From Bursaphelenchus xylophilus (taxonomy: Eukaryota > Nematoda > Chromadorea > Rhabditida > Aphelenchoididae): DNA of 64,000 nt. Below, in pieces: positions 12,001 to 58,900 of the stretch (position 1 is its first letter; each line of letters starts with the position of its first letter). The notes beneath the pieces are model-generated. The model had not been told where the DNA came from. It made no database searches and saw only the letters and a program-made list of their open reading frames with translations. Location: positions 9,858,001-9,922,000 of the forward strand of contig CAJFCV020000006.1 in the NCBI GenBank assembly GCA_904066235.2, in the 5' to 3' direction. A program made the translations under genes and the position numbers.

Positions 12001-13414
12001 AAGGGGCGGGAAATTTTTTCTTCTATTTTGGATTGACGTCCGTCTTTCCTTTCCATTTTGATTCTGCAGCGGCGGAAAAAGGGAAATTTTTGTTTCGAGA
12101 GAGAAATCCTCAAAAAAAGTCGTCCACATGTTTTAGACTTACCTTAATGTATTTTTAGGTATTCGTCTGGCCTATTTTTCCCACTTCGTCCCTGGAAATA
12201 ATATTTCGGAGCCCCGATTAATTGAACAGTTCTCCAACAGACAGCTTTTTTTCATCAACGTTGCCCAGACGATTGCGGCGATGACGGGGCGTTTTTGGAA
12301 CGACTATGTAACGAGTCGCTATGTGCCAGCTCGAGTTCGTGTTTGGGGAGCTCTTGCCAATTTTAAAGGATTTGCCGAGGCTTTTCGTTGCCCTGCTGGT
12401 TCGAAATATCACCTTCCAGTGGACCAGGGATGCAATATCTTTGACTCTGACATCCGTAGCACAACCACGACGACGACGACAACTACGACCACAACTACAA
12501 CGAGGACTACATCAACGGCTACAACGACTACAGAAGTTACAACGACGGCTACAACGACTACAGAAACTACAACGTTGGCTACAACGACGACTACACCAAC
12601 TACCACTGCAACGACCACAGAAACTACAACAACCGCTGCGACGACTACAGAACCTACAACGTTGGCTACAACGACTACAGAAACTACAACGATGGCTGCA
12701 ACGACTACAGAAACTACAACGATGGCTGCAACGACCACAGAAACTACAACAACCGCTGCAACGACTACGGAACCTACAACGACCGCTGCAACGACTACAG
12801 AAACTACAACGATGGCTGCAAAGACTACAGAAACTTCAACGACGGCTGCAACGTCGACTACACCAACTACCACTGCAACGACCACAGAAACTACTGCAGA
12901 AGCTCCTACAACAATGACTACAGCAGAAGCTACAACTAGCACTGCAGCGCCAGTTGTAACTGACGGAACTCCTCATGCCAGTACGAACACTCCACCGGCC
13001 CCCGGACCAACCAAATCAACTCCAAACCCACATCCGTCTACTACGCACTCTACGCCAAGAACTACTCCCTCTAAGCCAATAACGACTCCCTCTGAGACAA
13101 GAACTACGTCCCCTAAGCCAAGAACTACCCTTTCTACGCCAAGAACCACTCCCACTGGCCCTAGAAGTACTCCCCCTAAGCCAAGAACTACTCCCTCTGA
13201 GCCAAGAACTGCCCCTTCTACGCCAAGAACCACTCCCACTGGGCCCAGAAGTACTCCCCCTAAGCCAAGAACTACTCCCTCTCCGCCTTCACCGGAACCA
13301 GACTATAACCACGAAGAGTATGGAGAAGTTGTCCCCAAGAAATCGATTCTATTATTACCACCGCCGTATCCATTATATCCCATATTGGCATTTGCATATA
13401 TTATGTTTCAATAA
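3093..13414 (+). CDS. neprilysin-like (M13) protein, predicted catalytically dead, with Thr/Pro-rich mucin tail
   Basis: Seven exons join in phase: 3093-3335, 3421-3728, 4113-4290, 4365-4835, 5221-5368, 5465-5623 and 12159-13414, giving about 920 residues. A signal peptide (MTGRLFLWGVLLQSVAVQA) is followed by the M13 start motif CDDFYTYAAGYF. The core follows the family to its end, LFFINVAQ...FAEAFRCPAGSKYH. Active M13 enzymes have HExxH and GENxAD; here these positions read HELAR and PNKIAD, so the second zinc His and the third-ligand Glu are missing. The last exon adds about 170 residues of Thr/Ala/Glu repeats and then TPRTTP-type Pro/Thr repeats, probable O-glycan stalks. It ends in a short hydrophobic segment (PLYPILAFAYIMF) that could be a GPI signal or membrane anchor. 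The stop codon lies inside the AATAAA at 13412-13417. Introns 2, 4 and 6 carry transposons. A secreted or surface binding role is inferred. Confidence 0.82.
3764..4035. repeat. TIR element with TGTCGGGAAAATAAT ends in intron 2, containing part of a second MITE
   Basis: The outer ends read TGTCGGGAAAATAATGC at 3764 and the reverse complement CATTATTTTCCCGACA at about 4017-4033. The interior from about 3830 to 3992 matches the ACGTCAATCCA MITE family found at 4850 and 11805, including the right end TGGATTGACGT (3982-3992). The left end of that inner copy is not visible. The same outer ends recur at 19251-19405 and, as a single end, at 39147-39165. Confidence 0.65.
4850..5088. mobile_element. 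MITE with ACGTCAATCCA inverted ends, copy in intron 4
   Basis: The element opens with ACGTCAATCCA and closes with TGGATTGACGT, about 239 bp. The interior shares long blocks with the copy at 11805-12039 in the opposite orientation, such as TTCGTTCAAAACGAAATGTC. It has no coding capacity. It lies between exons 4 and 5 of the neprilysin-like gene and leaves both splice sites intact. Confidence 0.75.
5744..6583 (-). repeat. 3' LTR of the retroelement (left copy)
   Basis: This is an 840-bp direct repeat of 10930-11769. On the minus strand it runs AGTGCAATGG to CCATGCAACT. It carries its own copy of the TATAAAA (about 6410-6416) and of the first 189 Gag codons, which here run on into flanking DNA and stop at 5695. 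Confidence 0.88.
6584..6592 (-). other. polypurine tract of the retroelement
   Basis: The minus strand reads GGGAAAAGG directly before the AGTGCAATGG start of the 3' LTR, the expected place and composition for plus-strand priming. Confidence 0.75.
6723..11498 (-). CDS. Gag-Env-protease polyprotein of the LTR retroelement (1591 aa, pol missing)
   Basis: This one uninterrupted frame encodes an unusual order of domains. Residues about 1-410 are a Ser/Thr/Gln-rich N-terminus and coiled coil. About 425-640 is a retrotransposon capsid region. Residues 647-660 are a CCHC zinc knuckle (CX2CX4HX4C). Next comes an envelope-like block: a hydrophobic signal segment (about 817-843), a Cys-rich, N-glycosylated ectodomain, a furin-type site RPKR (1082-1085), a hydrophobic/helical stretch, and a C-terminal membrane span (about 1327-1350) with cysteines. 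After it lies a retropepsin with DTGAS (about 1404) and a later IIG motif. The frame stops where reverse transcriptase would begin. The start codon lies inside the 5' LTR. The glycoprotein family is unassigned; I cannot tell whether it is phlebovirus-, chuvirus- or baculovirus-F-like. Gag and protease calls are firm; the Env call rests on topology. Confidence 0.8.
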   Translation of the reverse strand: MKLKGEYLVSEETSSLHPSREVHGNFMGAPPGQVMRSFIGNYSRDILRTFNGNLTGLLNNFTGFLNDMFYCILCRPRQFSAEMSTQVYESSNSVNGLFCLISEEMQSLSSSSDVDSANKGESDSNTEYIPALRRHTHASSALMINVITRGSARPTQRQMEQPKASQNMSEAGTSGSGEFGRPESDVAMQLVAASTVPAGQAVSDPSASPEILQKLFPLSSVRNLESKLNLSELQQIVTLMFTDCRKLTGMIPSMATGQTQQHPCPDKMLIHQHFSAIEKELDLLKKTTTGEFSSSLFTDLQTEVKIQGEELHKEVKMATEAIEDSTKTYIGEINLQITGLKQQVADLSTQMLNLEAKYSEELRNFGQQLQDFRQQLVHEQDSQNNQFLLALSGNETMPREAEESLLNLPPIPSNLQVNVIDFGNLMKFYSGEGDESFSEFILKFEDFANQQSTPWDDKTKLSKLRLLLSGEAREKFQITCGDSDSLTYAQAKQKLLASYKQDSLHSGVLSELHATRQRDGETVDDFFCRLRRVLTKLMPDASPEELKTRFKEEFTYRLLDSISTPLQWLAPTTLEEARQKARTIESSLRRSEVQRTEMALRQLGSGVNAALAQNWPTNQGASRPSGGQLFPSQTNNYPVSPYQNIRCFFCQSLGHVKRECRKFAAYIARQNSGPQQSSNRPNGGTPWQRNNYGQPRNAQYTQMMNNNQRSGQRQMFVPSSALPPRHTHANAVQPLLESPLFTDDIPLQQPTEIVQTDARDAALQLLQRKRDQRMCRHVGHHLLVVQWANNHNTTKSSNWQENNRPQTLNNLNTPLLSPKLTPSVALFIALHLITLISGTEINPMICQNSNARTLYKIPSMENCDLPPLEIPVPMTLEIFKPNTDARSQAAWSCRIQKATIQYSTSLTGLVMETPVTTETMLVHPRQCWDMLKTKNCAFGSLTNRSTLWLTNNNFKRDYPWPVLGSFSWKTEHVHNCEVLPLQLQFAFGDNTVQSPLGTFDNCPYSQGYCTTPDHITLIWTPKASSNCPFIKVSTTKGLVSSRLWMASNNNMALEISPDQVDNCGTFLNLTSQEFAVTTHETRPKRAKLVDAELLSSVASALSIQSVLMIKSSLHFAQMERCRQQRQITALQQAIMEQDATSLARSILNFPYVHARRVTPSILEVLQCTPVPFSTIKIRESKFCYELTPIYFIDSNLKVVSAFLDTVDMIIKHDSHTIPCLGARGAFPLGNNSWVQFLQPYRNSTFPFPQNITLLHAQSEHNNSAPPNLAINIFRVESITNFSAPTPLLSFTPPGARFRSQDLSHELPEGPQTVLSLLTIPQWLIQSWIYGCCCVVSLQLIFIVWAFSKFLKEKISPAPKPVVQVVVPQEKPTVWPPPLVASCDNGIPYAQIPLKINGVPLCGLIDTGASMSIMAAALAPALGLNIAQHAQRFATSASGHTLRLFDDKVVTLEIGNLVQNINMTFSDNTNFLNASYDVIIGCTALAELPPMLIDMKARTVAIGRNILPLMSPEEMAMLPVKIKAISAVTLHPFSTTLVQCHPDTVSSPSNTILMINDPRYVVDLPNPYLCEDDKSKLKSLIKAFRYHSLSSI
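10913..10930 (-). other. primer-binding site of the retroelement, within gag codons
   Basis: The minus strand reads TGGTAGCAGCGAGCACGG, starting at the last base of the 5' LTR. TGGTAGCAG fits the 3' end of an initiator-Met-type tRNA (…CTGCTACCA); the remaining bases diverge from the common form. Because Gag starts in the LTR, these bases are also read as the Gag codons L-V-A-A-S-T. Confidence 0.65.
10930..11769 (-). repeat. 5' LTR of the retroelement (right copy), includes the gag start
   Basis: This is the upstream LTR in the transcription sense. It contains a TATA box, a presumed transcription start, the Gag ATG at 11498 and 189 Gag codons, so U5 is coding. The flanking CTTT (11770-11773) is the target duplication. 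Confidence 0.88.
11596..11602 (-). promoter_or_regulatory. TATA box of the 5' LTR
   Basis: TATAAAA lies about 100 bases upstream of the Gag ATG. The same box is present in the 3' LTR at about 6410-6416, where it could promote minus-strand transcription antisense to the neprilysin-like gene. Confidence 0.6.
11805..12039. mobile_element. MITE with ACGTCAATCCA inverted ends, copy in intron 6
   Basis: The ends are ACGTCAATCCA (11805) and TGGATTGACGT (12039), about 235 bp. It is the best-preserved member of this family in the window and is inverted relative to the 4850 copy. It sits between the retroelement remnant and exon 7 (12159). Confidence 0.75.
12459..13300 (+). repeat. coding minisatellite: Thr/Ala/Glu and TPRTTP repeats of the mucin tail
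   Basis: From 12459 the coding strand is a degenerate ACNACN repeat that encodes poly-Thr and TTTETTTMAA-type units. From about 13040 a second repeat encodes TPRTTP/PKPRTTPS units, with one block (TPRTTPTGPRSTPPKPRTT) present twice (about 13138 and 13219). It is in frame throughout the last neprilysin-like exon. Confidence 0.85.
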
Positions 13415-17504: not shown

Positions 17505-20500
17505 TTATTCGATGGTCCGTTTGCTTTTGGAGTTGAGCGGGAGTTCGTTGATCGAATCCGTGGGAGTGTCCAGACTTTCCACTTTATTTTCTTTGGGTTC
17601 GTAAGCAGGGGGCGGAGTCAGAGGAGGGGGTGTTTGTTTCGGGACCGGCAACGTCTCCGGCTCAACGGAGGCGGTGCTGTTTCGGTAGACTACTAACTGA
17701 AAAAAATGAAGTGAAAAATATGGCCAGTATGCGCATTGGGAATGCATGGTCTAAGGCTCAAAGACCATTTTTGTAGAACAAAAAAAAATTTGCCTTTAGA
17801 GGTTTCCGCACGGTGCAGTTTTCAAAAAATTATGAAATCGTACAGTGCGAAAAAAGTTTTTGGGATTAGCATAGAATATCCTAAAAGACATATTTTTAGA
17901 CCAAAAACCAAAAAAATGCTCCGTATTTTACAATCTTTAATTCAGTTGATACGATTAAGCTATCGTCGCAGCAAAATGTCGCAAAATTGGTGCAGTTTCT
18001 GAACCATGACAAAGAGATGATGGGCAGTTACAAGGCGCAGGGTAGAGGTCGCGTATTTTACATTGTCAAGTCATAACACAAACGTTTTACGAATTTTTGG
18101 TCCCACCACGAAAATTGCTTTTTTTCTATTATTGCGCATTGACAGAACTTGACTGCAATCAATGTATTTTACCGCTAACTCTTATTGTCATACAAATACT
18201 GGGATTCTAGGACTCCTGTAAATCTTGGCGCAGTTCAAAGACATCTATTGCAATATTTTTTACTGCTCGATGTAACATAAGGTATCCATATTTTTATCCA
18301 CATGACAGTTTTAAACGTACTTTACATTGATTTTTCAAATCATACAACGATGATTTTTTTAGTTTTTGGTCCCACCACGAAAACTTGGTTAGACTTATTT
18401 TTGCCCAAACTTGGTGGAATTAATGCTCTATATGTATTGTCGTATTTTACCCCCAACTCACATCGTCATCGCTATCTCGAACCTCCCGCACCACAACGCC
18501 CGAGGGTTCTCCCTGAATCCGAGCGTTCTTGTTGAAAACATTCGTTCCGAGGTTCGAGAACGACCTTCCCACCAGTCCAACGCGCCCATCGGTCGCCTTT
18601 TCCTCTCGAACTAATCGCATCAATCGTCGAATCGCGACGAATTCCAACACCTTTTCCACCAAAATGAAGGTAGAGAACATCAGGATGGCCAGGAACGAGA
18701 GCCGCGTCTGCAGGTCCATGGATTGCGCGCACTCTAAGAAAGGACTCGGCATTCGCACATTGCCTAGAGCATGCAAAGACAAGTTGAAAAGCGAGTTCAT
18801 GGTTAAAATGGTGGTGAAATTTTAGTAAAAAGGCATGGCAAAAGAAAAGTGAAATTGGAGTTTGACTTACCATTCATGGCGAAGCAAATCCCCAATTGCG
18901 CTATTACAGCCATCATGACGAGCAATGTGCCGAAAACAAAGGGCACCTATAAAAGAAATAGTGGATAGAGAACAGTTTTTTTGAAGAAAATTTTGTAAAA
19001 TTCGGTCAAATTCACAGTAATCCAGGTGTGACGCTCACAAGGGAACGAAAAGCGATTTGCTTTCGGTGTCGATCGCTTTTTGAACCAGGGGTAGTGCAAA
19101 TTGATCGGGTAGGACTCAGTATCATTCCCAAGCGGTAAAATCTCTGCGCAGCCCCTAAGGGCAGAGATATGAGCCGCAAAGTTAGGTCAAAGAAAATCGC
19201 CGAAACGTCAGATCTTGATGAAAGTTGGCACAGATTTAGATTATCAATCTGTCGGGAAAATAATGAGCGCAATGTCGCTTTTCCAATCGCATTGCTAAAG
19301 TGAAAAGTAATTCTGATTTTGCCGCGACACAATTCTTTTTTCTCGGTTGCGAAAAACGAAATTTTTAATGCGACAGAGTTGTTCATTATTTTCCCGGCAG
19401 ACTTATACCCCAAGTGTGACCCTGAGATTATGATGAAATTTGGCGCAGATTTAGAATAAATTTTTTTGTAACAAATATGTGAGATTCCCAGCTTTCGTTT
19501 TGCAAAAACGTCCGAGATTTTTAGGCCAAAAGTTTTTAAAAAACATGATACCTTTTTGCGAATTTTGTCATCAAAAGTTTCATGGCTATTTCTACGGTAA
19601 AGGGTAATATTTCCTCAAAAAATCAATTTTTTCTATGCCAAACTGAGAAAGATATAGCCAAAAAGTGCTCTTCTCTATGACCACTTTCCGCGTTTAGTGC
19701 ACTCTCTCTGCCGCAAAGATCGTTGAATATCTCAGCTGTCCCGGTAAAGTTCAAGCCAAAATTTGCAGGAATTGGAATGTGGCCTATGTCTAATGAATGT
19801 ACAAAATTTGAAGAAATTCTGCGCGTTGCATTTGGAGTACTTCCCTGATTAACTCAACCCTGTCTTTTAACTTTTTGACTCACTTACCACAAAAACCAGC
19901 ACCGGATAAAACAGCCATTCTCGGTTGCCACACGCCGCATACATCGCGACAATCGTGCTGACCACATAAACCAGCCAGAAAGCACCGAAATTGCTGATAA
20001 TTTGGACGAATTGGGCGACAAATATACATAATGCTGCTCCGTAAACTACGTCGAATAAAAGGAAACCAAAAACAATGTACTGAAACGAGAAATTTGTTGG
20101 GTTTACAATATTTTTTGAAAAAAATTTTTTGTTAAAAAGAATATTTTTTTTATTTTGAAAAAGTTCCGAAAAATTTTTTTAAATTTTTTTTTGAAATGTT
20201 TACAGGGGAAGTACTCGAAGTGCGACGCTCAGATTTCCTTTAAATTTTGCACACACGTCGGGTATGGACTAAATATCAATTCCTGAAAGTTTTAGCTCGC
20301 GCTTTGCGGGCGCCGCCGAGATACTAGTCCTTCCGTAAAGTCGCTGGAATGTTTTCGGCGACATGCACTCCGCGAAAACGAAAGTTCACTTTGCACTGTG
20401 CAATTTTTGGCTTTTTGCACAGTGCAATAAGCTTTTTTGGGACGTCGCTCGCACCCTGAGTTTTCTTGCACAGTGCGCGTCGCCGAAATCATTCCAGCGA

Positions 20501-22556
20501 CTTTACGGAAGGACTACTAGGCGGGCCAAAAAGTCTTGACATGTTTTCGCACCGTGCGGGCGCATGAATCCAGTGTCGCGACGAGGTGTCGCGCGATAAA
20601 ACCTTTGGCGGGGTGCGAACGAAGAACGCACTGTGCGTTGTTTACCCTTTTCAAAACAACCTTTTTGCACTGTGCGGTGTCGCATTGCACCGTAAATTTT
20701 TCTTGTCGCCGCGCGATAAATTTCATGCACGACGGCGCACTGTGCAGACATGTCAAGACTTTTTGGCCCGCCTAGTACTAGTCGCGACATAAAGTCCGTA
20801 GAATTTTCTGCACTGTGCATTCACCCGAAAACACATTTTGCACTGTGCAATTTTGTTGATTTTGCCTTATTGTCGCGCGCGATTCCCATTTTTCTCAGCG
20901 ACAAATCGACATTTCGGGGTGCGACGGGATTTGGGGGCCGCGAAAAATTCTACGGACTTTACGTCGCGACTAGTACTAGTCGCGACATAAAGTCCTGACA
21001 CATTTTGCACCGTGCATTCTTCTTTCATTTCATCCGCACTGTGCATCTTTTCGCATTTGTCGCCGCGATTTCCCCTTTTTGCACTAGCGACGTGCAAAAC
21101 CCAACTTTCGCACCGTGCATTCTTCATTCATTTCGCATTTGTCGCCGCGATTTCCCGTTTTTGCGCTAGCGACGTGCACTTTCGCGCGCGACAAACCCGA
21201 ATTTGGGGGCGCGACGTCCAAATCCCGAACTTTCGCACGGTGCAAAATGTGTCAGGACTTTATGGCGCGACTAGTACTAATCGCGCTCAAAAGTCCTGAC
21301 AATTTTCGCACCGTGCATTCTTCTTTCATTTCATCCGCACAGTGCATCTTTTCGCAGCGACCTGGACTTTTGCGCGCGACAAACCCGAATTTGAGGGCGC
21401 GACGTCCAAAAACCGAACTTTCGCACTGTGCATTCTTCTTTCATTTCGCATTTGTCGCCGCAATTTCCCTTTTTTTCACTAGCGACATGCACTTTTGCGC
21501 GCGACGAACCCGAATTTGCAGGGGCGACGTCCAAAACCCAAAATTTCGCACGGTGCGAAAATTGTCAGGACTTTTGAGCGCGATTAGTACTATTACGCTT
21601 TTTCAAAAGTGCAGACACATTTTGTCGTGGGCCGCACCGTGCACAAAACTCCCTTTTGCGGGGTGCATTTCGACCTTTTGCACTGTGCAACCGGATATCG
21701 CTGCGACGCAAGCTTTTCTCAACGGAGCCGGCGCGAATTTTTTGAAATTGCACAGTGCAAAATGTTTCGAATCGGATCGCGTCGCGCGGGGAACACGAAA
21801 CTTGCACTGTGCGGTGCAAAAAAGGCCGGAAAATGTGTCTGCACTTTTGAAAAAGCGTAATAGTCGTTCCAGAAAGTGCGTGCACCTTTTTCCGCCTTTT
21901 TTTCGGACCGCACAGTGCAAGTTTCGTGTTCCCCGCGCGACGCGATCCTTTTCGAAACCTTTTGCACTGTGCAATTTCTAAAAATTCGCGCCGGCTCCGT
22001 TGAGAAAAGCCTACGTCGCTGCGACATTGCAATTGCACGGTGCAAAAGGTCAAATGCACCCCGCAAGAAGGCAATTTTGTGCACAGTGCGGCCCACGACA
22101 AAAAGTGCACGCACTTTCTGGAACGACTAGTAGTATCGAACGATTTTTGCCGCCGAGAGAGCACGCTAAACGTGGAGAGCGGTCAGAGAAAAAACAGCTT
22201 TTTGGCCATAACGTTGGCAGTTTCGTGCGGAAAAATTTAATTTTTTGTAGAAACATTATCCTTTACGGTAGACATAGGCATGAAACTTTTCGTGCCGAAA
22301 TTCGGCAAAAAGTCATAAGTTTTGGCCGACTTTCGATCTAAAAATCTCGGTTGTTTCTGCAAAGCGCGAGCTAGGATTCTCGCGTATATCTTAGAAAAAA
22401 TTATTCTAAATTTGTGCCAAGTTTCATCAAAATCTGAGCGTCGCACTTGGAGTACTTACCTTGTTAGATAAAAATCAAAAAAAATTTTTTTTCACTCACC
22501 CTAAGTTTTTTCAATTTCAATGGCGAATGTCCCAGCAGTCCCACCGGTACCGACAT
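17505..22556 (-). CDS. multipass (about 4-TM) membrane protein with cytosolic PPPAY tail
   Basis: Five minus-strand exons join in phase: 22556-22500, 20079-19888, 18946-18871, 18763-18462 and 17696-17505, about 272 residues. The start MSVPVGLLGHSPLKLKKLR is short and basic. Four hydrophobic spans follow: YIVFGFLLFDVVYGAA..., FWLVYVVSTIVAMYA, the span from VPFVFGTLLVMMAV..., and LSFLAILMFSTFILV. The C-terminal half is cytosolic, acidic and Pro-rich, with TPPPAYEP, a PY-type motif that WW-domain ubiquitin ligases bind. Layout and PY motif recall LAPTM-type lysosomal proteins, but the N-terminal Cys/CHVRTG motif is absent, so I leave the family open. Introns 1 (2.4 kb) and 2 (0.9 kb) are packed with transposable elements. 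Two similar stretches containing GGTCCCACCACGAAAA lie in intron 4 at about 18100 and 18370. Confidence 0.65.
19251..19405. mobile_element. short TIR element with TGTCGGGAAAATAATG ends
   Basis: Its 5' end TCTGTCGGGAAAATAATGA pairs with TCATTATTTTCCCGGCAGA at its 3' end, about 155 bp, non-coding. It lies in an intron of the 4-TM gene, inside a larger degraded repeat (about 19020-19856) that resembles the 25627 element. Confidence 0.65.
20327..22127. repeat. chain of seven adjacent TA-flanked palindromic elements
   Basis: Each unit begins and ends with its own inverted repeat and is flanked by TA. E1 is 20327-20514 (GTCCTTCCGTAAAG). E2 is 20520-20772 (GGCGGGCCAAAAAG after TA). E3 is 20781-20970 (GTCGCGACATAAAGTCCG). 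E4 is 20979-21271 (GTCGCGACATAAAGTCCTG). E5 is 21280-21584 (ATCGCGCTCAAAAG). E6 is 21593-21860 (TTACGCTTTTTCAAAAG). E7 is 21863-22127 (GTCGTTCCAGAAAG). Units are separated by TA, TAC or TAGTACTA only. All contain GCACNGTGC dyads, and none has a plausible gene. The TA flanks suggest Tc1/mariner-type mobilisation. Confidence 0.75.
21593..21860. mobile_element. 268-bp TA-target MITE (unit E6), second copy at 52236
   Basis: The ends are TTACGCTTTTTCAAAAGTGC and its reverse complement, flanked by TA on both sides. A nearly identical 268-bp copy occupies 52236-52503. Translations of the two copies differ at only one or two positions, so they moved recently. Confidence 0.8.
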
Positions 22557-23090: not shown

Positions 23091-23162
23091 AGGTCCCACC
23101 GAGATTCGAACTCGGGTCGCAGGATTCAAAGTCCTGAGTGCTAACCGCTACACCATGGAACC
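23091..23162 (-). tRNA. tRNA-Gln(TTG): tRNA-Gln (anticodon TTG)
   Basis: A 72-base cloverleaf on the minus strand starts GGTTCCATGGTGTAGCGG and ends in TGGGACC plus the discriminator. The anticodon loop is CTTTGAA with anticodon TTG. The A box (TGGTGTAGCGGTTAGCAC) and the B box (GAGTTCGAATC) are intact, and it closely resembles animal tRNA-Gln. A 7-bp acceptor stem with one G-U pair is present. There is no intron. Confidence 0.93.
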
Positions 23163-23330: not shown

Positions 23331-23402
23331 GGGGGTATAGCTCAGGGGTAGAGCGCTCGCTTAGCATGCGAGAGGGCTGGGGTTCAATTCCCCATACCTC
23401 CA
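23331..23402 (+). tRNA. tRNA-Ala(AGC): tRNA-Ala (anticodon AGC)
   Basis: A 72-base cloverleaf starts GGGGGTATAGCTCAGGGG, has anticodon loop TTAGCAT with AGC, and ends in the GGTTCAATTCC T arm and TACCTCC. The acceptor stem pairs with one G-U. It lies 168 bp from tRNA-Gln on the other strand. Confidence 0.93.
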
Positions 23403-23918: not shown

Positions 23919-24759
23919 CTAATAATACTTCACCAGCCTCAAGAAGTTCATTCCATCCACCACCACGCCAATACAATAGTAGTAAAAGAGGGCAAAAACG
24001 AAAAAAACCCCGATTTCGCAATAAATCCGGATTTTTTTCGAATTTTGCTGAGAATCTTGAAGATTAACCAAGTCATTGATAATGCAGATGAAGATCAGAA
24101 TTACAGCGACAATTGTGGATATAATAAATGGAAGGTAGAGTTGCCATTTCTTGAGGAAATGGCCGATTAATAGCAATAAACTGCTCAGACAGGCGATTGT
24201 CATCGGAATTAGCTCGATTTTCGGCAAACATCCGATACGAAAGTCGCCCCAATGGCAGTTATCTGAAAATTCAGATGATTTTTTACACTTTTCGGGGCAA
24301 ATTTTTGATTCAATTTTTTCGCACCGTGCAAAAATTTTCTTTGTTTTTTTTGCACTGTGCAATTTTTTATTTTAAATTTTTTTGCACTGTGCGGTAAAAA
24401 TTTGATGTAAAAAAGTAATTTGCGATAATTTTTTAATAAAATCAAACACTTTCTGCATCTCAAAAATTTACGTTTTTTCTCCATAATTTTAGATGATGCA
24501 TAAAATTTAACGTTTTTTATCCATAATTTTTTCATTCTCAAAAGATAAGTTTTTAGCCATAAAAATACCTTTTTTCCCTCCTTCATGATACACTCCAGCA
24601 TATTGTTTTTGGGCCATATAAATCAAAAACGCAAATGACGTCATAAAAACAATAAGCCCGATGTTTCTGGTGGCTTGCTAAATTTTTAAATGTAAAATAA
24701 ATTTTAATCGACTTACATGAACATGACATTGATTGAAAAAACAGTAATGCCGCATAAAT
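23919..24759 (-). CDS. multipass membrane protein, LAPTM-like layout (5' end unresolved)
   Basis: Two exons are firm: 24677-24569 (frame NIGLIVFMTSFAFLIYMAQK) and 24262-23919, joined in phase through HEGGKK-DNCHWGDFRIG. The second contains three long hydrophobic spans (MTIACLSSLLLLIGHF, LPFIISTIVAVILIFICII, IGVFFVFALFYYYCIGVVV) and ends LRLVKYY. A 43-base exon at 24759-24717 is plausible, but two joining frames are possible. The true start may be an ATG near 24970 (MSLSLLENGSIQLM), for which I see no good donor. It lies between the 4-TM gene and the LAPTM-like gene on the same strand, so the three may be related. The intron at 24263-24568 carries three GCACNGTGC dyads. Confidence 0.55.
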
Positions 24760-29599: not shown

Positions 29600-31005
29600 T
29601 CATCCAAATTTCCTATTCAAATACTTGTAATCTCGGTAAATCACATCCAACAAGTATATTAGGACAACTTGGCCAATAATCAGGCCAATCAGCCATGCTA
29701 GGTCAAAGTAATGTGCGTTATTTTCCTTGTTTTTGCTGACCAAAAGTATTACAAACCAAATAACTCCATACATAAAGATGATCTGACTAAAGAACTAAAA
29801 ATATTTTGCTCTAAATTAAATTACAAATGTTATTACTTACAGATACCACCAAATGCGGGATATAAAAGGCCTTTTTCTGCGATAAACTTCCGATCAACGC
29901 CAAAATTGAACTGAAAATCAGCAAAACAAAGGCGCCAAGTAACGGATAGTGCTCGTAAATGGCGGATACTGCAATAATATGGCGTTTGAGAGTCCAATTT
30001 CGGAGAAAATTGACTTACAATTAGTCAGTTTATCAAGTTGATGTCGCTGGAAGATGATGAATATTATCCCAGCCACCGAGATGGCAAAAGTAATCACACA
30101 AGCCCATACTGAACCAGTCTGAAAGTAAAAAAATAGCAAAATTACTTCTAATAGTTTTGACTGCACTGTGCGGTCACAAAGCAATAAATTGGCACGGTGC
30201 AAGAAATTTCCGGTCTTTTGCACTGTGCAAAAATCAGAATTTGTCGCTGTCGCGCAGTGAAAAAACAAAAGAAAACAATTGCACTGTGGGAAGAAATCAG
30301 ATTTGATTGCACAGTGCAATGAGGAAACGGATTTGCGACAACAAATTTTGTTGCACAGAACAAAGTCAAGAAGCGACAACTCTGCATTGTGCAGTCGCGC
30401 AGTCTAGTTTTTGACTGCACCGTGCAAAATGGAATCTTAACAATGCACAGTGCGATCAGGTTTGGGCTGCACTGTGCAGTTGGAGAAACAGATTTTTTTG
30501 CACAGTGCAGTCAGAATAAATTTTGTGTGCGCACAGTGCAGTAAGAACAAATTTTGTTTTTGCACTGTGCAGTTCGAATAAAGTTTTGTTTTTGCACAGT
30601 GCAGTTCGAATAAAATTTTGTTTTTGCACAGTGCAGTCACAAAAAAAATTTCATTTTTGCACAGTGCAGTGAGAACAAATTTTATTTTTGCACGGTGCAG
30701 CTAGAAAAACTTTTGTTTTTGCACAGTGCAGTTCGAATAAAAATTTTTTTTGCACAGTGCAGTTAGAACAAATTTTATTTTTGCACAGTGCAGTTTCCAA
30801 AAAACGAAAAATCTGCACAGTGCAAGTATAATTCGACCTAAAAAAAGTGATTTTCAAAATTTTTAAACTAAAACCGGTCTGCACAGTGCAAACATTTTGT
30901 AATCAATCAACTTACCCTAATATGGCACAAATTGCAAAAGCACTTCTCCTTCGGAGCGTACCAAAAGTCACGTGGCACCCCAAACTGAACCGCTCTTTCT
31001 GTCAT
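29600..31005 (-). CDS. LAPTM4/5-like lysosomal membrane protein
   Basis: Four minus-strand exons join in phase: 31005-30916, 30118-30019, 29968-29841 and 29782-29600, 166 residues. The N-terminus CFCNLCHIRTGSVW matches the CCxxCHVRTGT start of LAPTM proteins. Four hydrophobic spans follow: VWACVITFAISVAGIIFIIF, YPLLGAFVLLIFSSILALIG, VVSIIFMYGVIWFVILLV and LIGLIIGQVVLIYLL. The end, YRDYKYLNRKFG, resembles the NCYKYINNR motif of the family, but the Pro-rich PY tail is absent, so the protein is shorter than vertebrate LAPTM4 (about 230). LAPTM proteins act in late endosomes and lysosomes. The first intron (30119-30915) is almost wholly a GCACNGTGC array. Confidence 0.7.
30160..30890. repeat. intronic GCACNGTGC dyad array (LAPTM-like gene, intron 1)
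   Basis: About 20 copies of GCAC-N-GTGC or close variants are spaced about 25-40 bases apart. They are joined by T/A-rich linkers such as AGAACAAATTTTGTTTT. The array fills the intron to within some 40 bases of both splice sites. Confidence 0.85.
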
Positions 31006-49927: not shown

Positions 49928-52900
49928 TTAGATCCGAGAGTGTTCCGTGGCCAAATTGAGCATACAAGCGACGGCCTGCGACAAGTCTTCGGTTTGGCCC
50001 AGCCTTTGAGTGGGCGTGGTCAGGATCTGGGAGCGGGTCGGCTGTCGGCGGACCCGGTCGTACGCCGATTTTAACATCCTGCAAAAAAAAGTGAAACATG
50101 CGCGATCGTATTTTACAATGAGAACGCAAATTTCATCCAAGAATTTTTATTTTTTCTCAAAAAAAAAATCGAAAAATCATATTCTTTGAGGAAAATTTAT
50201 ATTACACTTGACATATGGTCCTCGTATTTTACCCAAAAATGGCTTCCAAAATTCATTTCAGCTCTTTTTCTAGTCATTCAACCAAGAAAACATCCAAAAT
50301 TCCCTATTTTTTATCAAAAATTATATTACACTTGACTATAGTTCTCGTATTTTACCCAAAAATGGCTTCCAAAATTCATTTCAGCTCTTTTTCTAGTCAT
50401 TCAACCAAGAAAACATCCAAAATTCCCTATTTTTTATCAAAAATTATATTACACTTGACTATAGTTCTCGTATTTTACCCAAAAATGGCTTCCAAGATTC
50501 ATTTCAGCTCTTTCGTTAGTCATTTAACCCATAAAGCCTCCAAAATTCCCAACTTTTTATCAAAAATTATATTACACTTGACCTATAGTCCTCTTATTTT
50601 ACCCGAAAAAGGCTTCCAAGATTCATTTCACAAGGAAAGTACTTTTATGGGGGCTCCTACTTTTTGACGGGACATATCTCAAAAAATCAGAAAAAATGTG
50701 CTGATCAAGGATATATAAATCTTAGCTTCCCATTTTAGGTTTTTAGGGGTGAAAACTCAGTCGGAAGATGACTTAAAGTCCTATATAAACCCCTTTTCGC
50801 TCAATTTTTCACAGGTTTACAATTTTTATTTTGGCTTAGAATGATGTTTATTGAGTTTCTAAGACGTAATAAATCAGGTTTGGCACAAAAATTTATTTTT
50901 CAGACCTTCAACTTTTTTTAAAAAGTTACTTCGGCCCAAAAGGGAAATCGAACCCGTGCGGCGTCCTCCCTCTTGATTCCAAAGCTACGGCACTAACCAC
51001 TCGGCCACACCGCTCTCTTCCGAAGGAGGAGACCGACTGCGCTTTTTATCGTTTCGAATGCCTGCGCCTTTTGTAGAGAAATTAAGCCAGTTTTTGGGCA
51101 TTTTCACCCCTAAAAACCTAAAATGGGCAGCTAAGATTTATATATCCTTGATCAGCACATTTTTTCTGATTTTTTGAGATATGTCCCGTCAAAAAGTAGG
51201 AGCCCCATAAAAGTACTTTCCTTGTCAGACTTTTTTCTATTCATTTAACCCATAAAACCTCCAAAATTCCCAACTTTTTATCAAAAATTATATTACACTT
51301 GACCTATATATAGGTCAAGTGCTATAGTCCTCTTATTTTACCCGAAAAAGGCTTCCAAAATTCATTTCACAGCTTTTTCTCCCTATCAAACCTAATTTTT
51401 TCGTCAAAAATCCCCACAAAAATTCCAAAAAAACCTCATTTTTCCCCCAAAACTTACTCATTTTCTGTCTGAAGAACCCTGATCAGATTTCCCAAATCAT
51501 CCGGAGTGGCTTCTCTGCACAGTGAATCGCTGTCTCGTTTCCTAAATTCCGGTGTCAGATGGATTTGAAGGGGGGTTTGGCGCTGTGGGATTGGTGGTGG
51601 AGTGACCTTATCATAGACAAACACCTCGTCAATGGTCTCGTTTTTGTGGTCCGGCTCGTCGGTAAAGGTGGCCGGGCTCACCGTAACATAGCCCACGCGA
51701 CCGGTCGACCGTCGGCGCATCTTATTGTGGACGAATTGCGTGAAATCACGGACATTATCCAGTGCGTTCGTCTGGAATACGATAAAATTAGATCAAAAGA
51801 GAAGATTGCACAGTGCAAAAACAAAAAACTTTTCCTGCACAGTGCACTCAATCCAAAACTTTACTCCGCACAGTGCAAAAAATAAAAATCCAAAAAAATA
51901 ATTGCACAGCGCGAGAAATCTTCAAAACTTTATTCGCACCGTGCAAACACGACAAATTTTCATTTTGCACTGTGCAAAACAAAAACTTTTGTCTGCACAG
52001 TGCATTCAACCCGAAACTTTATTTTGCACAGTGCAAATACAGGGTGTTTCAAGAAATTTGGCAGAAACTAGTTGCGAATATTTTTGAGCTCTTGCTAGTT
52101 ATCGCAGAAATTCTTTTTGTTTCTGAAACTTGACAGCGGGCGGTTTTGTACTGAACAAAAAAAAATTTTTTTCGTCGGCGGAGAGGCCAGTTCTCGGCGG
52201 AGGCATTTGGGGCCTTTTTTAAAAATCACACCTTATTACGCTTTTTCAAAAGTGCAGACACATTTTGTCGTGGGCCGCACCGTGCACAAAACTCCCTTTT
52301 GCGGGGTGCATTTTGACCTTTTGCACTGTGCAACCGGATATCGCTGCGACGCAAGCTTTTCTCAACGGAGCCGGCGCGAATTTTTTGAAATTGCACAGTG
52401 CAAAATGTTTCGAATCGGATCGCGTCGCGCGGGGAACGCGAAACTTGCACTGTGCGGTGCAAAAAAAGCCGGAAAATGTGTCTGCACTTTTGAAAAAGCG
52501 TAATATTACATCGTGGAAACTCTGTTACAGTGGCCAAAATCATGTTTACGTTAAACCTCCGTGGATTTTGCGGTATGCTTTTTTTGCGTTTTCGATTTTA
52601 CGCAACATCCGCGGAGGCGCGACGGAGACCGCAGATTTCGGCGGACTTTGTTTTGGGCCCTCGGTTTTTGCAAATCCATGTTGAAAAAAAGGTTGGGGCG
52701 ATTTTTTGTTGTCATCCGATGCACAGAGGGCAAAAATTTTGTACTTTTTTCCCCTGGCGGAGGATTCGGCGGAGGCTTTCTCAAAGGGTCAAAACAAAAT
52801 TTTGACTCTTTTGATAAAGCCTCCGCCGAAACCTCCGCCGATGTGTCCGCCGGATCAAAAAATAAGAAAAATGGTGTTGCTGTGATGGATTCTTGTAGCT

Positions 52901-55900
52901 GAGTTTTTTCCCGGACTCCTAAGACTGTTCTGACCCTTTGGTAAAGCCTCCGCCGAATCCTCCGCCGGGGGAAAAAACTGCGAAATTTTTGCATCTGTGC
53001 ATCGGGTGACAACAAAAAATCACCCCACACTTTTTTCCAACCTGAATTGAATGATCCAAAGGCTCAAAACGACGTCCGCCGAAACCTGAGGTCTCCGCCG
53101 TGCCTCCGCGGATGAGCGAAAATCGAAAACAAAAAAAGCATACCGCAAAATCCACGGAGGTTTAACGTAAACATGATTTTGGCCACTGTAACAGAGTTTC
53201 CACGATGTAATAAGGTGTGATTTTTAAAAAAGGCCCCAAATGCCTCCGCCGAGAACTGGCCTCTCCGCCGACGAAAAAAATTTTTTTTGTTCAGTACAAA
53301 ACCGCCCGCTGTCAAGTTTCAGAAACAAAAAGAATTTCTGCGATAACTAGCAAGAGCTCAAAAATATTCGCAACTAGTTTCTGCCAAATTTCTTGAAACA
53401 CCCTGTAATAAAAACCCCAAAAAAATTACTGCACAGTGCGGGAAATTGTTCAAAACTTTATTCGCACCGTGCAATCCCCAACGTTTCGTTTCCGCACCGT
53501 GCAAAATCAAAAAAAAGAAGGTTTTTTCGCACAGTGCAAAGCAAAAAGTCTGTCGCACGGTGCAAGACGAAAAATCCTCAAAATTGTTCTTTGCACAGTG
53601 CAAATTCTCAACTTTCTTTTCCGCACCGTGCAAAGAAAAAAGTCTGTCGCACGGTGCAAACAAAAATTCTCAAAACTATTCTTCGCACAGTGCAAATTCT
53701 CAACTTTCCTTTTTGGCACAGTGCAAAAAATTCCTCATTCTTCCTTTCGCACAGTGCAAATAAAAAAATTTGTCGCGCGGTGCAACCAAAAACCCCCAAA
53801 AATTTTCTTCGCACAGTGCAAATTCTCTACTTTCATTTTCGCACTGTGCAAAAAAATCCTTCTTCCATTCGCACCGTGCAAACTATCAAACACCTTTCTC
53901 CGCACTGTGCGAACCCCAAACCCAACAGAAATTCTCGCCGCACCGTGCAATCACCTACCTTTTCGTAATATTCCTGTAATTCATGCTCGGGTTTGTGGCC
54001 TTTGATGGTTTTGCGCGCAAAGAAGCAGTTCTGGCACATGTCCACATTGAAGCAATGGAGGCATTTGAATCGGAGGCCCACAATCGGGTACATTTTGCAT
54101 CCCGCGCACTTGGCGTTTTTGTGTTTCGAGAACTCGGATCTGATCAAATGATGAAGAGAGCGGGCCCAGGTCAGCGTTTCCGGGTTCAGATGGGTCCATT
54201 CGAGGAACTGGTCGACTGTGACATGCTCTACTTTGAGTTGACCATTCGAATCCGCGACATGTTTGAAGAGGGAGGCCGTGGAACAAGGGGCAGATTTTAG
54301 GCCAAATCGAGAAGAATCTTCACCGACCAGTCGAGGGAACTGAAATAAAAGTTAGTTGAGAAGAAGAACAGTAAAAAATTATTTCACGGAGCAAAAAAAC
54401 TTGGATATCGTACTGTGCGCGCAGTTCATTGCACTGTGCAAACTTTGCGACAAAATTTTCTTCGTTTGCACAGTGCAAACCACAAAAAACTTTTGTCGCA
54501 GACTTTGCACAGTGCAAAACTCATTTTTCTTCTTTTCCGCACAGTGCAAACAACAAAAAATTTTGTTGCAGACTTTGCACAGTGCGAAATTCCTTTTCCT
54601 CCAGTTTGCACCGTGCAAAATACAAATCTTTTTTGCCGCAGACTTTGCACAGTGCAAATGTCGTTGTTCCTTTTTTGCACGGTGCAAAACCCTTTTTTTC
54701 TGCACAGTGCAAACAACAAAAAATTTTTGTCGCAGACCTTGCACAGTGCAAACGCCATTGTTCGGTGCAAAACGCCTTTTTCTTCTTCTTTGCACCGTGC
54801 AAATTGAAAAACTTTTTGTCGCAGACTTTGCACAGTGCGAGAATTATTTTTCTTTCTTCCGCACAGTGCAAAACTCTTTTTTCTTCTTTTCTGCACCGTG
54901 CAAATCACTCAACTTTTTGTCGCGGACTTTGCACAGTGCAAACCTTATTTTTCCTTTCTTGCACAGTGCAAAATCCCTTTCCTCCATTTTGCACAGTGCA
55001 AACTACAAAAAAACCTTGTCGCGGACCATGCACAGTGCAAATTGTCATTTTTCTTTCTTCCGCACAGTGCAAACCTCATTTTCATTCTTTTCGCACCGTG
55101 CAAACAACAAAAAAAGTTTGTCGCAGATTATGCACAGTGCGAATTTTATTTTTTATTTTTCGCACAGTGCAAAATCCCCTTCCTCCATTTTGCACAGTGC
55201 AAACAACAAAAAAACCTTGTCGCGGACCATGCACAGTGCAAATTGTAATTTTTCTTTCTTCCGCACAGTGCAAACCTCATTTTCCTTCTTTTCGCACAGT
55301 GCAAACCCCATTTTCATTCTTTTCGCACCGTGCAAAACCAATTCTTCCCCATTGCACCGTGCAAATCCCCCAATTCTCTCCAAAAACCTTCAAAATGCCT
55401 CAATTTTCCCCGTTTTTTCTGGAATTTCTTACTTTCGCGAGGTCCGTGAACATTTCCACCATTTTTTCCTTGGTTCCCTCTCCATTTTCGGTGTAAATTC
55501 CAAAGATATACCGGTATTTTTGGTCCAAATTTCCGTTCACCAGGAAGGAAAGGGCCATTTTGATGGTTCTGGCTTCGTTGGACATGGCGAGGCTCTTGAA
55601 CAGTTCGGTTGCCTTCAAGATCGCGTCTCTGACGTCCTTTATTGAGGTGGGAAAGTCGGCGTGGGCCTTTTCGAAGAGCGGTTTCAGGATTTGGAACTGC
55701 TCATCGATGCTCAGATCCCCGTGGTTCTTCAACAAAAGCTGGCGGAACAGCAAATCCACGTGGGCGAGGTCGATCAAATCAAAATTGAGGCGTTTCTGGA
55801 CCGCCCAGACCTTCATCGCGGTGCGGTAATTCGAGAATTTGATGCGATTGTAATTCCGGAGGCAATCCAGTAAATCCCTGAGGCATTCGGGCTCGAATTG

Positions 55901-58900
55901 GACGCGGACAAACGCGCCGTTCACCGAGGACGTCTCGCTTTGAGGGCTGGAGCTGAAAAAAGGCGAAATTTTGGGAAATTTTATATTACACTAGGTAAAA
56001 AATCAAAATTTTTATGAAGAAACTAATATTTTTTAAAAAGATTTCGCTCAATTTACCTTTATCAAGTTCAAAGATCATCCGAAAAGCAAAATTTAGACAA
56101 TAAAAGTCCACTTTTCTTATGGATAATAACAAAAATTTTACAAAAACATTAAACAATATCTAAATTCAGGGGATTTCTTTAAAAAATAATTCTTAAAATT
56201 TAAATTTAATCCGTATTTTACCCAAATTCACTCAAAAATAACCCATTTTTTGGCTAAAATCACATAATCCGGACTTACACCATGCAAAAAAATCTTCCAA
56301 CACGTCTCAAAACCCTTCAAAATTTCAAGAAAAAGCCCGGCACATCGTATTTTACCCACATTTCCCAAAAATCCATCAAATTCGTCATTTTTCGTCCAAA
56401 ACAAAACAACTCAACCTTATACTAGGCAAAATTAGTCCAAAAACTCCCAAAAACCCCTCCAAACTCCGCAAAACACCTTACCAAATCGTTGTAGATCTCG
56501 TTGACATTGTTTGTGAGGTCGTTGGAGATGCCGAGCACTTCGCACTTGGGCTGGATTGAGGACTTTTGAGGCGTAATTCACGGACCAGATGGCTGATTCT
56601 GTCGAACTGGATCTCCAAAGTCTCGAGGCTCTTCCTTCCCGAGTCCGAGGCCATGATTCCATCGCCATTTTGGCGGAAAGTTGCGATTAAACGGGCGGAT
56701 TTCTGAAAAATTTGGAAATTAGTCCATTGCACAGTGCAGTCGGAAAAACAAAACAAACAACACATTGCACAGTGCAGTCGTAAAATAAAATCGAAAAACA
56801 CATTGCACAGTGCAGTCGCAAAAAAAATAAAACAAAAAATATATTGCACAGTGCAGTGACAAAAATAAAACAAAAAAGGGTTCGCACCGTGCAGTCAAAA
56901 AAAAAAAAAACGATTCCCAACTCCACGCACTGTGCACGCGACGACACGCGACAAAACCCCGCACGGTGCAAAAAAAATTTCGTCGCTAAATTCTTCGCAC
57001 CGTGCAAATTAGAAAAGGTTTTTCGCAAAACCCGATGCACTGTGCAATGAAAAAACTTGTCGCCAAAACCGGCGCACGGTGCAATGTAATCAATGAACCA
57101 AAACTCGCACAGTGCACTTCAAATTCAGCTGCATAGTGCAAAAAACAACAAGACAAAAAAGCACAGTGCAAAACAAAACTTCGCGGCTAAATTCTTCGCA
57201 CAGTGCACATCAAAAAAGTTTGTCGCAAAACCCGATGCACTGTGCAATGAAAAAAACTTGCCGCAAAATCGGCGCACGGTGCAACAGTGCACTTGATGAA
57301 CCAAACATGCACAGTGCAAAGGACAACGCGACAAAAACGCGCAGTGCAAAGCAGAACTCGACCTTTGCACTGTGCAATTTTCCCCAAAAATTTTCGCACC
57401 GTGCAAAAAAAAACAACGCCAAAAGTCGACTGCACAGTGCAAACAAAAACCAAAGACAAAAAACGCACTGTGCAAACGACAACTCTAGATTCTGCACCGT
57501 GCAATTTCTACCGAAATTTTTCGCACCGTGCAAAAAACACAAGACCAAAAATCCACTGCACAGTGCAGTTACTAATTATAAAAAAAATCCCATTTTTACC
57601 TCCAAGATATCATCAATTCGCTTCTGTTCGGCTACTGTGAATCCATTTTGGTTCCAGAATTCCAATTTTGTGAGCTGGCGTTTGAACCAGGTCTCGCATT
57701 GGCACAGGGCTTGCTTTGTTTTGATATCCGGCGATTGCATTTTGCGGGTTCGGATGATGCTAAAAGTAAAAAGTGGGGAAAATTTTAAAACTTTTTTATA
57801 AACAATATTCCCCGGGCTATAATGGACTACTTTTCGACACTTTATAAACAAAAAATGAATCAAAAGTCGAAAAATTTTTCGGGAACTTATATTTTTATAT
57901 TATACATGATAAAGCTTGATTTTTTTAACCCGAAACTCAACTCCCATCTGATCCAAACAAATTCTAATCATCCGAAAGGCCATTTCAACCTCCAAACTCG
58001 TAAAATTTCAACATAAATCAAATTTTTTTATATTATCCATGAAATTTTTGCCTGTTTTTGAGTCAAAATCGCCCTAAAATTTATGCCAAATTCCCTCAAA
58101 CACCATAAAATTCATTATTCTTCCAATAAAAACCAAGAAGTATCAAAATTTCGCAAAAAATAAAAAATTTTTATATTATCCATGACATTTTTTGTCTATT
58201 TTTATGTTAAAATAGACCTCCTAAGTAAAAAAATCCCCCTAAAACAAATAAAATTCAATTTTCAACTATTTCCATGCAAACCCAATAAAAAATTTGCAAA
58301 AAAAACAAAAATTTTTATATTATCCATGACGATTTCTCATCAAAAACCCCCAAAAAAAGCTCTTACATCTCGGTTAATCCATTCCACTGCTCGGTAATCT
58401 CATTCCATTGACTTTTTAGGTTCTTCAGATCATCGAATTGGAATTCCTTGAACAAATTTTCGGTGACTTTTTTCAGGTTCATGTAGTCATCATAGTGTCT
58501 GTTATATTCGGCGGTCAGTTGGTCTAAAGCCGACGAATCCTTGGAGATCTCGACCATCTCGGCCGTGGGTTGAATTTTCTGCAGCCATTCCTTCATCGGG
58601 GCTCGATGATTTTCGAATGCCCTGAGGGCATCCAGCAGATTCTGGAGTTCGTTGCGACGGCATTGGAGGGAGATCAGCTTCTCGTCGAGTTCGCGACGAC
58701 AGTTCTGGGCGCGCTTTTCGAAGACCGAGTGGTTCTGGGCTGCTCTTTCCGCATTCAGGAGCATTTTCTTGCCTTCCTGGAGGTCTTCACATCTGTTCTG
58801 AAAAAACGAAAAAATTGAATATCAAATTTGTAAAATACGATATGCCAACTTGAGGCTGGTTCATGGACACAATTTTTATTTTGAATTTGTATTGAAAAAA

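Follow-up and report, generated by a model that had tools for sequence, protein, structure and literature searches.

Why would long introns of a nematode be packed with a short palindrome whose letters hardly change while the DNA around it drifts? The question is raised by a 64,000-nucleotide stretch of Bursaphelenchus xylophilus (assembly GCA_904066235.2, contig CAJFCV020000006.1, positions 9,858,001 to 9,922,000 of the forward strand; hereafter, the window), in which an initial annotation had pointed to about 100 copies of a dyad, GCAC-N-GTGC, in five dense arrays. The window contained 128 exact copies of GCACNGTGC, compared with a mean of 0.32 and a largest count of 2 in 100 dinucleotide shuffles. 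In the whole genome (78,253,340 bases in six chromosomes, each of 12-15 Mb, plus two scraps), we counted 41,616 exact copies, compared with 178 for the reversed pattern used as a control; for GCACNGTGCAAA, the corresponding numbers were 22,867 (11,341 + 11,526) and 19. The five arrays were as dense as first described, with 19, 7, 16, 28, and 23 exact dyads at the coordinates given there, or 93 of the 128 in the window.

A kept dyad in drifting DNA

Across 390 flanks, the consensus of the site was an 11-bp palindrome, Y-GCAC-N-GTGC-R, and the preference farther outward from the core was also symmetric, being T-rich before it and A-rich after it. The free center that had been proposed was thus confirmed, but the kept part consists of eight bases, with a Y and an R flanking them, rather than of nine bases. 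In 31 arrays with at least four dyads each, which together held 332 exact dyads, there were 20 sites with one mismatch (1.1 expected) and 36 with two mismatches (about 15 expected). A second word, TGTCGC/GCGACA, was also enriched in dyad arrays from the window and the fetched loci, at 4.76/kb versus 0.63 outside; it was present in 17 of 27 arrays, and its reversed control stood at 0.27 versus 0.31 outside.

The spacing of the dyads had a sharp lower limit. Genome-wide, only 107 pairs of dyads were 10-19 bp apart, compared with 10,820 at 20-29 bp, 11,633 at 30-39 bp, and 4,106 at 40-49 bp, the last count taking in non-neighboring dyads. Neighbor spacings were also taken from the window together with 20 stretches of 10 kb and 20 of 1.5 kb; the minimum of these 594 was 20 bp, and the 411 spacings of at most 45 bp had a median of 31 bp and a mean of 31.6 bp, with a standard deviation (sd) of 5.0 bp. 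These values match the spacing of about 24-41 bp (mean about 32) noted at the outset. They amount to about three helical turns, as also noted there, but exact helical phasing was rejected because the spacing is too loose (sd 5 bp). The hundred-fold drop below 20 bp would fit a bound body about two helical turns long.

We then compared how fast the parts of the arrays diverge. Between paralogous array segments with 80-99% identity, the fraction of differing bases was 0.000-0.018 in the core, 0.314 at the center, 0.11-0.15 in the flanks, and 0.109 in the far linker; for segments with 80-90% identity, it was 0.010 in the core versus 0.144 in the linker. Twenty loci fetched later gave 0.000-0.029 for the core, 0.312 for the center, and 0.152 for the far linker, and their segments with only 70-80% identity gave 0.017-0.063, 0.404, and 0.227, respectively. 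Inversion of the center (A-T and C-G swaps) was rejected, as it accounted for 17 of 55 center differences versus 0.27 of linker differences, without clear excess. Tandem units are present in the arrays (31, 69, 101, 106, 197, and 201 bp), yet a plain minisatellite was rejected because the unit is so unevenly kept. On a larger scale, a unit of about 2.36 kb lies in tandem, with identical dyad positions, at C1:97764-109469 (L001-L005).

The dyad is also carried by two families of miniature inverted-repeat transposable elements (MITEs), MITE1 (268 bp) and MITE2 (259 bp). Both have terminal inverted repeats, TA flanks, non-coding sequence, and many near-identical copies, as MITEs do, but their terminal repeats differ from one family to the other. 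Each contains four dyads, spaced by 46, 70, and 54 bp in MITE1 and by 79, 39, and 70 bp in MITE2, and the outermost dyads lie 32-48 bp inside the element ends. The dyads are not all inside such elements, however: 99 of the 128 in the window lie outside its MITE cluster and its nested MITE.

The MITEs allowed the comparison to be repeated in alignments where the homology of the sites is not in doubt. The MITE1 sample comprised 37 fetched loci and two window copies (without C8:5745, C6:9879873, and C5:10669447), of which 36 of 39 rows were aligned, L051, L052, and L065 being dropped for their differing 3' ends; the MITE2 sample comprised 36 of 39 places fetched, besides the window's own copy. 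Variants shared between copies were found in 1 of 64 core columns versus 51 of 313 linker columns, and private variants in 6 of 2,330 core cells versus 98 of 11,300 linker cells; the depletion in the core relative to random windows had P values of 0.0005 and 0.0037. The center varied in 7 of 8 columns, compared with 123 of 313 linker columns (P = 0.009), although its shared variants alone were not significantly commoner (P = 0.14). Together, the array paralogs, the later loci, and the MITEs agree with the original description, in which only the dyad is kept while the linkers drift. Instead of the equally conserved linkers or the chance spacing that were to speak against that description, we thus found drifting linkers and a spacing preference that extends genome-wide.

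Introns and chromosome arms

The features of the window that bear on the dyads are as follows (strand given where one applies).

17808, 38360, and 38920: single dyads
20393..22097: mobile-element repeat cluster, 25 dyads
about 20520-20778: MITE2 copy in the cluster
21591-21862: MITE1 copy in the cluster
21873-22117: diverged MITE1 relative in the cluster
24321..24392: three dyads, spaced by 31 and 32 bp, likely intronic
30163..30889: array of 19 exact dyads, partly a 31-bp tandem repeat, in an intron at about 30119-30914
51808..52034: array of 7 exact dyads, acceptor-side part of intron A
52039..53410: 1.4-kb element with long terminal inverted repeats (read directly), splitting the arrays of intron A and containing a nested MITE1
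52234..52505: the MITE1 copy, 4 dyads, 268 bp long between its TA flanks
53431..53948: array of 16 exact dyads, donor-side part of intron A of a dystrophin-like gene, with 10 bp between the last dyad and the donor
53961..54339, minus: exon with EF-hand_3 and ZZ domains, dystrophin-like gene (ends by eye)
54431..55362: array of 28 exact dyads in intron B (about 54340-55432), showing higher-order units of 101 and 201 bp
55434..55952, minus: exon with EF-hand_2 domain, dystrophin-like gene (ends by eye)
55953..56483, minus: intron C of that gene, free of dyads and strongly periodic in A/T runs at about 10.5 bp (contrast of 3.53 over 55965-56480)
56729..57566: array of 23 exact dyads in intron D (about 56703-57599)

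The minus-strand gene is called dystrophin-like from its predicted EF-hand_2, EF-hand_3, and ZZ domains, and we assign the outer exons to it by inference. Intron A is about 2,187 bp long (about 51772-53958), and the other array introns are 796-1,093 bp, against a median intron of 69 bp for the species (PMC3164644, in the first column of a table, recognized by exon size). With splice sites placed by eye, the distances from array to acceptor and donor in the four introns were 36/10, 91/70, 26/33, and 44/25 bp, so that the arrays indeed stop within tens of bases of the splice sites, at 26-91 bp from the acceptor and 10-70 bp from the donor. No dyad was found in nine listed exon stretches (3,790 bp). 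Also in line with the initial annotation, the genes for PRPF4 and arrestin are free of dyads, with none between 24392 and 30163 or between 38928 and 51808. When joined, the PRPF4 exons matched the B. xylophilus protein at 99%. By eye, arrays B and D have no terminal inverted repeats. The 35 window dyads outside the five arrays fall into the mobile-element cluster (25), the group at 24321-24392 (3), the MITE at 52234-52505 (4), and the three singles.

Elsewhere in the genome, visual inspection placed arrays in introns of two genes, likewise classified by eye, one acetyltransferase-like (L009) and the other membrane-protein-like (L024). The description of introns filled with dyads therefore stands for four introns of the window, but it is too narrow, since dyads also occur in MITEs and one array (L026) looks, by eye, to be intergenic, lying apparently between two genes.

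Along the chromosomes, the sampled dyads are biased toward the arms. In a map made from two thinned patterns with fixed flanking bases, which is a sample and not a complete map, 116 places merged at 5 kb into 93 clusters, and the middle third of the chromosomes contained only 6 of these (binomial P = 8e-10). Eighteen 10-kb chromosome samples contained from 0 to 72 dyads each (203 in total). An unplaced 14.5-kb contig had 60 dyads in its first 10 kb (L028, C8:1-10000), much of this stretch resembling the window's own MITE cluster (20-22 kb).

A putative reader of the dyads

Since the same letters are kept in two unlike kinds of DNA, the arrays and the MITEs, recognition in trans by a protein is the reading that we prefer. 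With a probability of roughly 0.6, the dyads of both would be recognized by a single DNA-binding protein, sequence-specific and probably dimeric, that marks the DNA of the chromosome arms or keeps it open. That some protein binds the dyads at all seems a little likelier than this whole, and the palindrome suggests a dimer. Each dyad would dock one dimer of the putative protein, with a footprint of about 20 bp; the core would be kept by selection, by shielding from mutation through contact, for which PMC11186772 offers a precedent, or by both; the arrays would have grown by slippage or unequal exchange, and the MITEs would have spread additional dyads. Where the protein sits, introns and intergenic stretches on the arms might then be marked or kept accessible. 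A mark of chromatin or expression is preferred because of the arm position, the long introns, and the neighboring A/T-periodic intron in the same gene. By analogy with the introns of Caenorhabditis elegans that carry periodic A/T clusters (PATCs), the outcome may possibly be a license for expression in arm chromatin, which we hold only tentatively. Just as speculative is the wider picture of a genome-wide operator lattice, in which one lineage-specific protein, perhaps a tamed transposase, would sit on some 40,000 arm sites and provide a code that sets the chromatin of arm genes, a word-based counterpart of PATCs.

Several observations weigh against this reading. Nematode repeats are commonly enriched on chromosome arms, and MITE1 and MITE2 are arm-biased too, if more weakly, 12 of 72 falling into the middle third (P = 0.045 for the difference between arrays and MITEs). 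The segment alignments may pair dyads that lack true homology. Nor is it secure that the center evolves faster than the linkers: the ratio of the two rates was 2.87 (2.19-3.58) in the first set of arrays and 2.06 (0.95-2.61) in the later loci, and hand-cut tandem units showed 12 of 70 differences at the center versus 241 of 1,823 in the linker. Core rates from these units were left unused because the units were cut at exact dyads, which biases the core, and only center and linker were compared. Finally, A/T periodicity in the eighteen chromosome samples (1.03-2.56) had no clear relation to the dyad count, and the array at 54431-55362 itself scored 1.91 on the A/T-periodicity contrast; the comparison with PATCs is therefore weak and rests more on place than on pattern.

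Among the alternatives, the one that survives best, though we consider it unlikely, is that the dyads are internal or subterminal cis signals of transposons, bound by a transposase with TA targets, and that the arrays are relics that have expanded without any role for the host. The two MITE families, with four dyads each despite their unlike terminal repeats and with the outer dyads close to the element ends, speak for it, as do the core kept between MITE subfamilies and the largely MITE-like C8 with its 60 dyads in 10 kb. It accounts well for the dyads in MITEs but leaves unexplained the separate 31-bp lattice, whose spacing is unlike that inside the MITEs, and 99 of the window dyads lie outside the cluster and the nested MITE. 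Moreover, the core is depleted of private variants as well, which would not be expected of a signal used only for jumping, and between 75 exact MITE1 terminal repeats we found no pair enclosing an element longer than about 1.5 kb.

Rather less probable is binding without consequence, in which a protein with some other job coats the dyads and, by touching the core, protects it from mutation, while the arrays drift as neutral minisatellites. Passages of PMC11186772 (2024) report an exceptionally low mutation rate at the high-information bases of bound motifs and a raised one at some of the bases of CTCF sites, a pattern that resembles the core and center of the dyad, and selection on 41,616 sites would then be unnecessary. 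By itself, however, idle binding leaves the multiplication of the dyad to that number unexplained, and likewise the near-absence of spacings below 20 bp.

We regard as improbable a third alternative, in which the dyads are a centromeric box of the CENP-B or Meloidogyne type. Dissimilar Meloidogyne satellites share a kept 17-bp box, with signals along the chromosomes, according to passages of PMC3694981 and PMC9673304; but, by eye, the letters of the dyad are unlike the CENP-B box YTTCGTTGGAARCGGGA in the latter, the middle third of the chromosomes is sparsely occupied where a spread along the whole chromosome would be expected, and the arrays are located within introns.

A hairpin or cruciform, maintained through pairing of the RNA or through palindrome repair by template switching, is close to refuted, even though the dyad is a perfect inverted repeat: the compensated palindrome GCGCNGCGC, the one symmetric variant counted, was not enriched genome-wide (406 versus 504 for the control), only 1 of the 36 double mismatches in arrays was symmetric, about what chance predicts next to 20 single mismatches, and the two bases beside the center, which a loop would free, were as constant as the other core bases. 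With the compensated form not enriched and symmetric changes rare, it is the fixed letters and not pairing alone that are kept, and the suggestion of a small hairpin under selection was dropped.

The word repeated 41,616 times, its kept core, and the sharp lower limit of its spacing would together be a strong cue that a protein reads the non-coding DNA of the arms. The dyad is known in enough detail for direct use as bait in a pull-down (TTTGCACAGTGCAAA), and it could show, as a natural experiment, whether selection or shielding from mutation preserves the sites that a protein binds. PATCs have so far been the answer of C. elegans to expression in repeat-rich arms, and the lattice would be a testable rival to them in the expression of nematode genes in such arms.

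Related systems and other features of the window

Full-text literature searches, whose coverage left out most subscription papers, listed no paper on the dyad, and PMC3634726 contained none of the six terms checked in it. In this respect the claim that no such family has been described agrees with the literature, but related kinds do exist: repeats that diverge around a short, kept word to which a protein probably binds are known, and it is the scale, place, and form of the dyad that we did not find in the literature. The Meloidogyne satellites with their CENP-B-box-like motif are such nematode repeats, in which the short word is kept, the rest diverges, and protein binding has been proposed (passages of PMC3694981 and PMC9673304); CenH3-associated repeats with a 19-bp box are another box-bearing nematode case in the latter. 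The satellites, however, have monomers of about 170 bp and a holocentric spread, whereas the dyad has other letters, forms a 9-11-bp palindrome per approximately 31 bp, and is arm-biased and intronic.

In C. elegans, CERP2/CELE2 MITEs have spread sites of HIM-17, a THAP-domain protein related to transposase, and about a third of germline-specific promoters derive from these elements, as stated in passages of PMC9757741. The likeness lies in MITEs that carry sites, although in B. xylophilus a host protein is only proposed; CERP2/CELE2 differ in having paired m1/m2 promoter motifs in thousands of pairs, and the passages describe no intron-filling lattice.

PATCs act from introns to promote germline expression, according to part of a review (PMC9071541), and the dyad arrays, in four window introns with splice sites by eye, are likewise a nematode non-coding pattern in introns. 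PATCs are an A/T periodicity of about 10 bp, whereas the arrays carry a fixed word and have an AAA ratio at lag 10 of 0.66 (27 arrays), compared with 1.83 outside. In 256,794 bases outside arrays, from the window and the fetched loci, AAA/TTT runs showed a periodicity of about 10.5 bp, with AAA ratios of 1.83, 1.54, 1.59, and 1.40 at lags of 10, 21, 32, and 42 bp. This strong A/T periodicity is PATC-like DNA in B. xylophilus. The interstitial telomere tracts of C. elegans, in the same part of PMC9071541, are also a short word that is plentiful on the arms for an unexplained reason, but they are TTAGGC-type, number 1,229 tracts, and are not palindromic.

Beyond nematodes, scans of prokaryote and virus collections, each with at least 120 matching stretches, gave no dyad lattice among the 80 matches listed; these had one dyad pair each, or two in L144, L148, L168, and L296. 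When arrays in other species were sought by way of mispredicted proteins, 1,426 candidates emerged, none with E ≤ 0.001.

The remainder of the window has features of its own. An open reading frame (ORF) of 1,624 amino acids on the minus strand (6723-11597) is retroelement-like, as judged by eye, and another minus-strand ORF (5695-6411) starts with the same residues, about 5 kb apart, as in a repeat-flanked element. A plus-strand ORF at 14872-15216 matches a SWIM zinc finger (E = 0.00019) and is perhaps, we assume, the end of a MULE-type transposase. Two transfer RNA (tRNA) genes are located at 23331-23402 (plus) and 23091-23162 (minus), and an Rfam scan of the window at gathering scores gave nothing beyond them. 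A threonine-rich ORF on the plus strand (12137-13414) contains tandem repeats of 30 bp and 21/84 bp.

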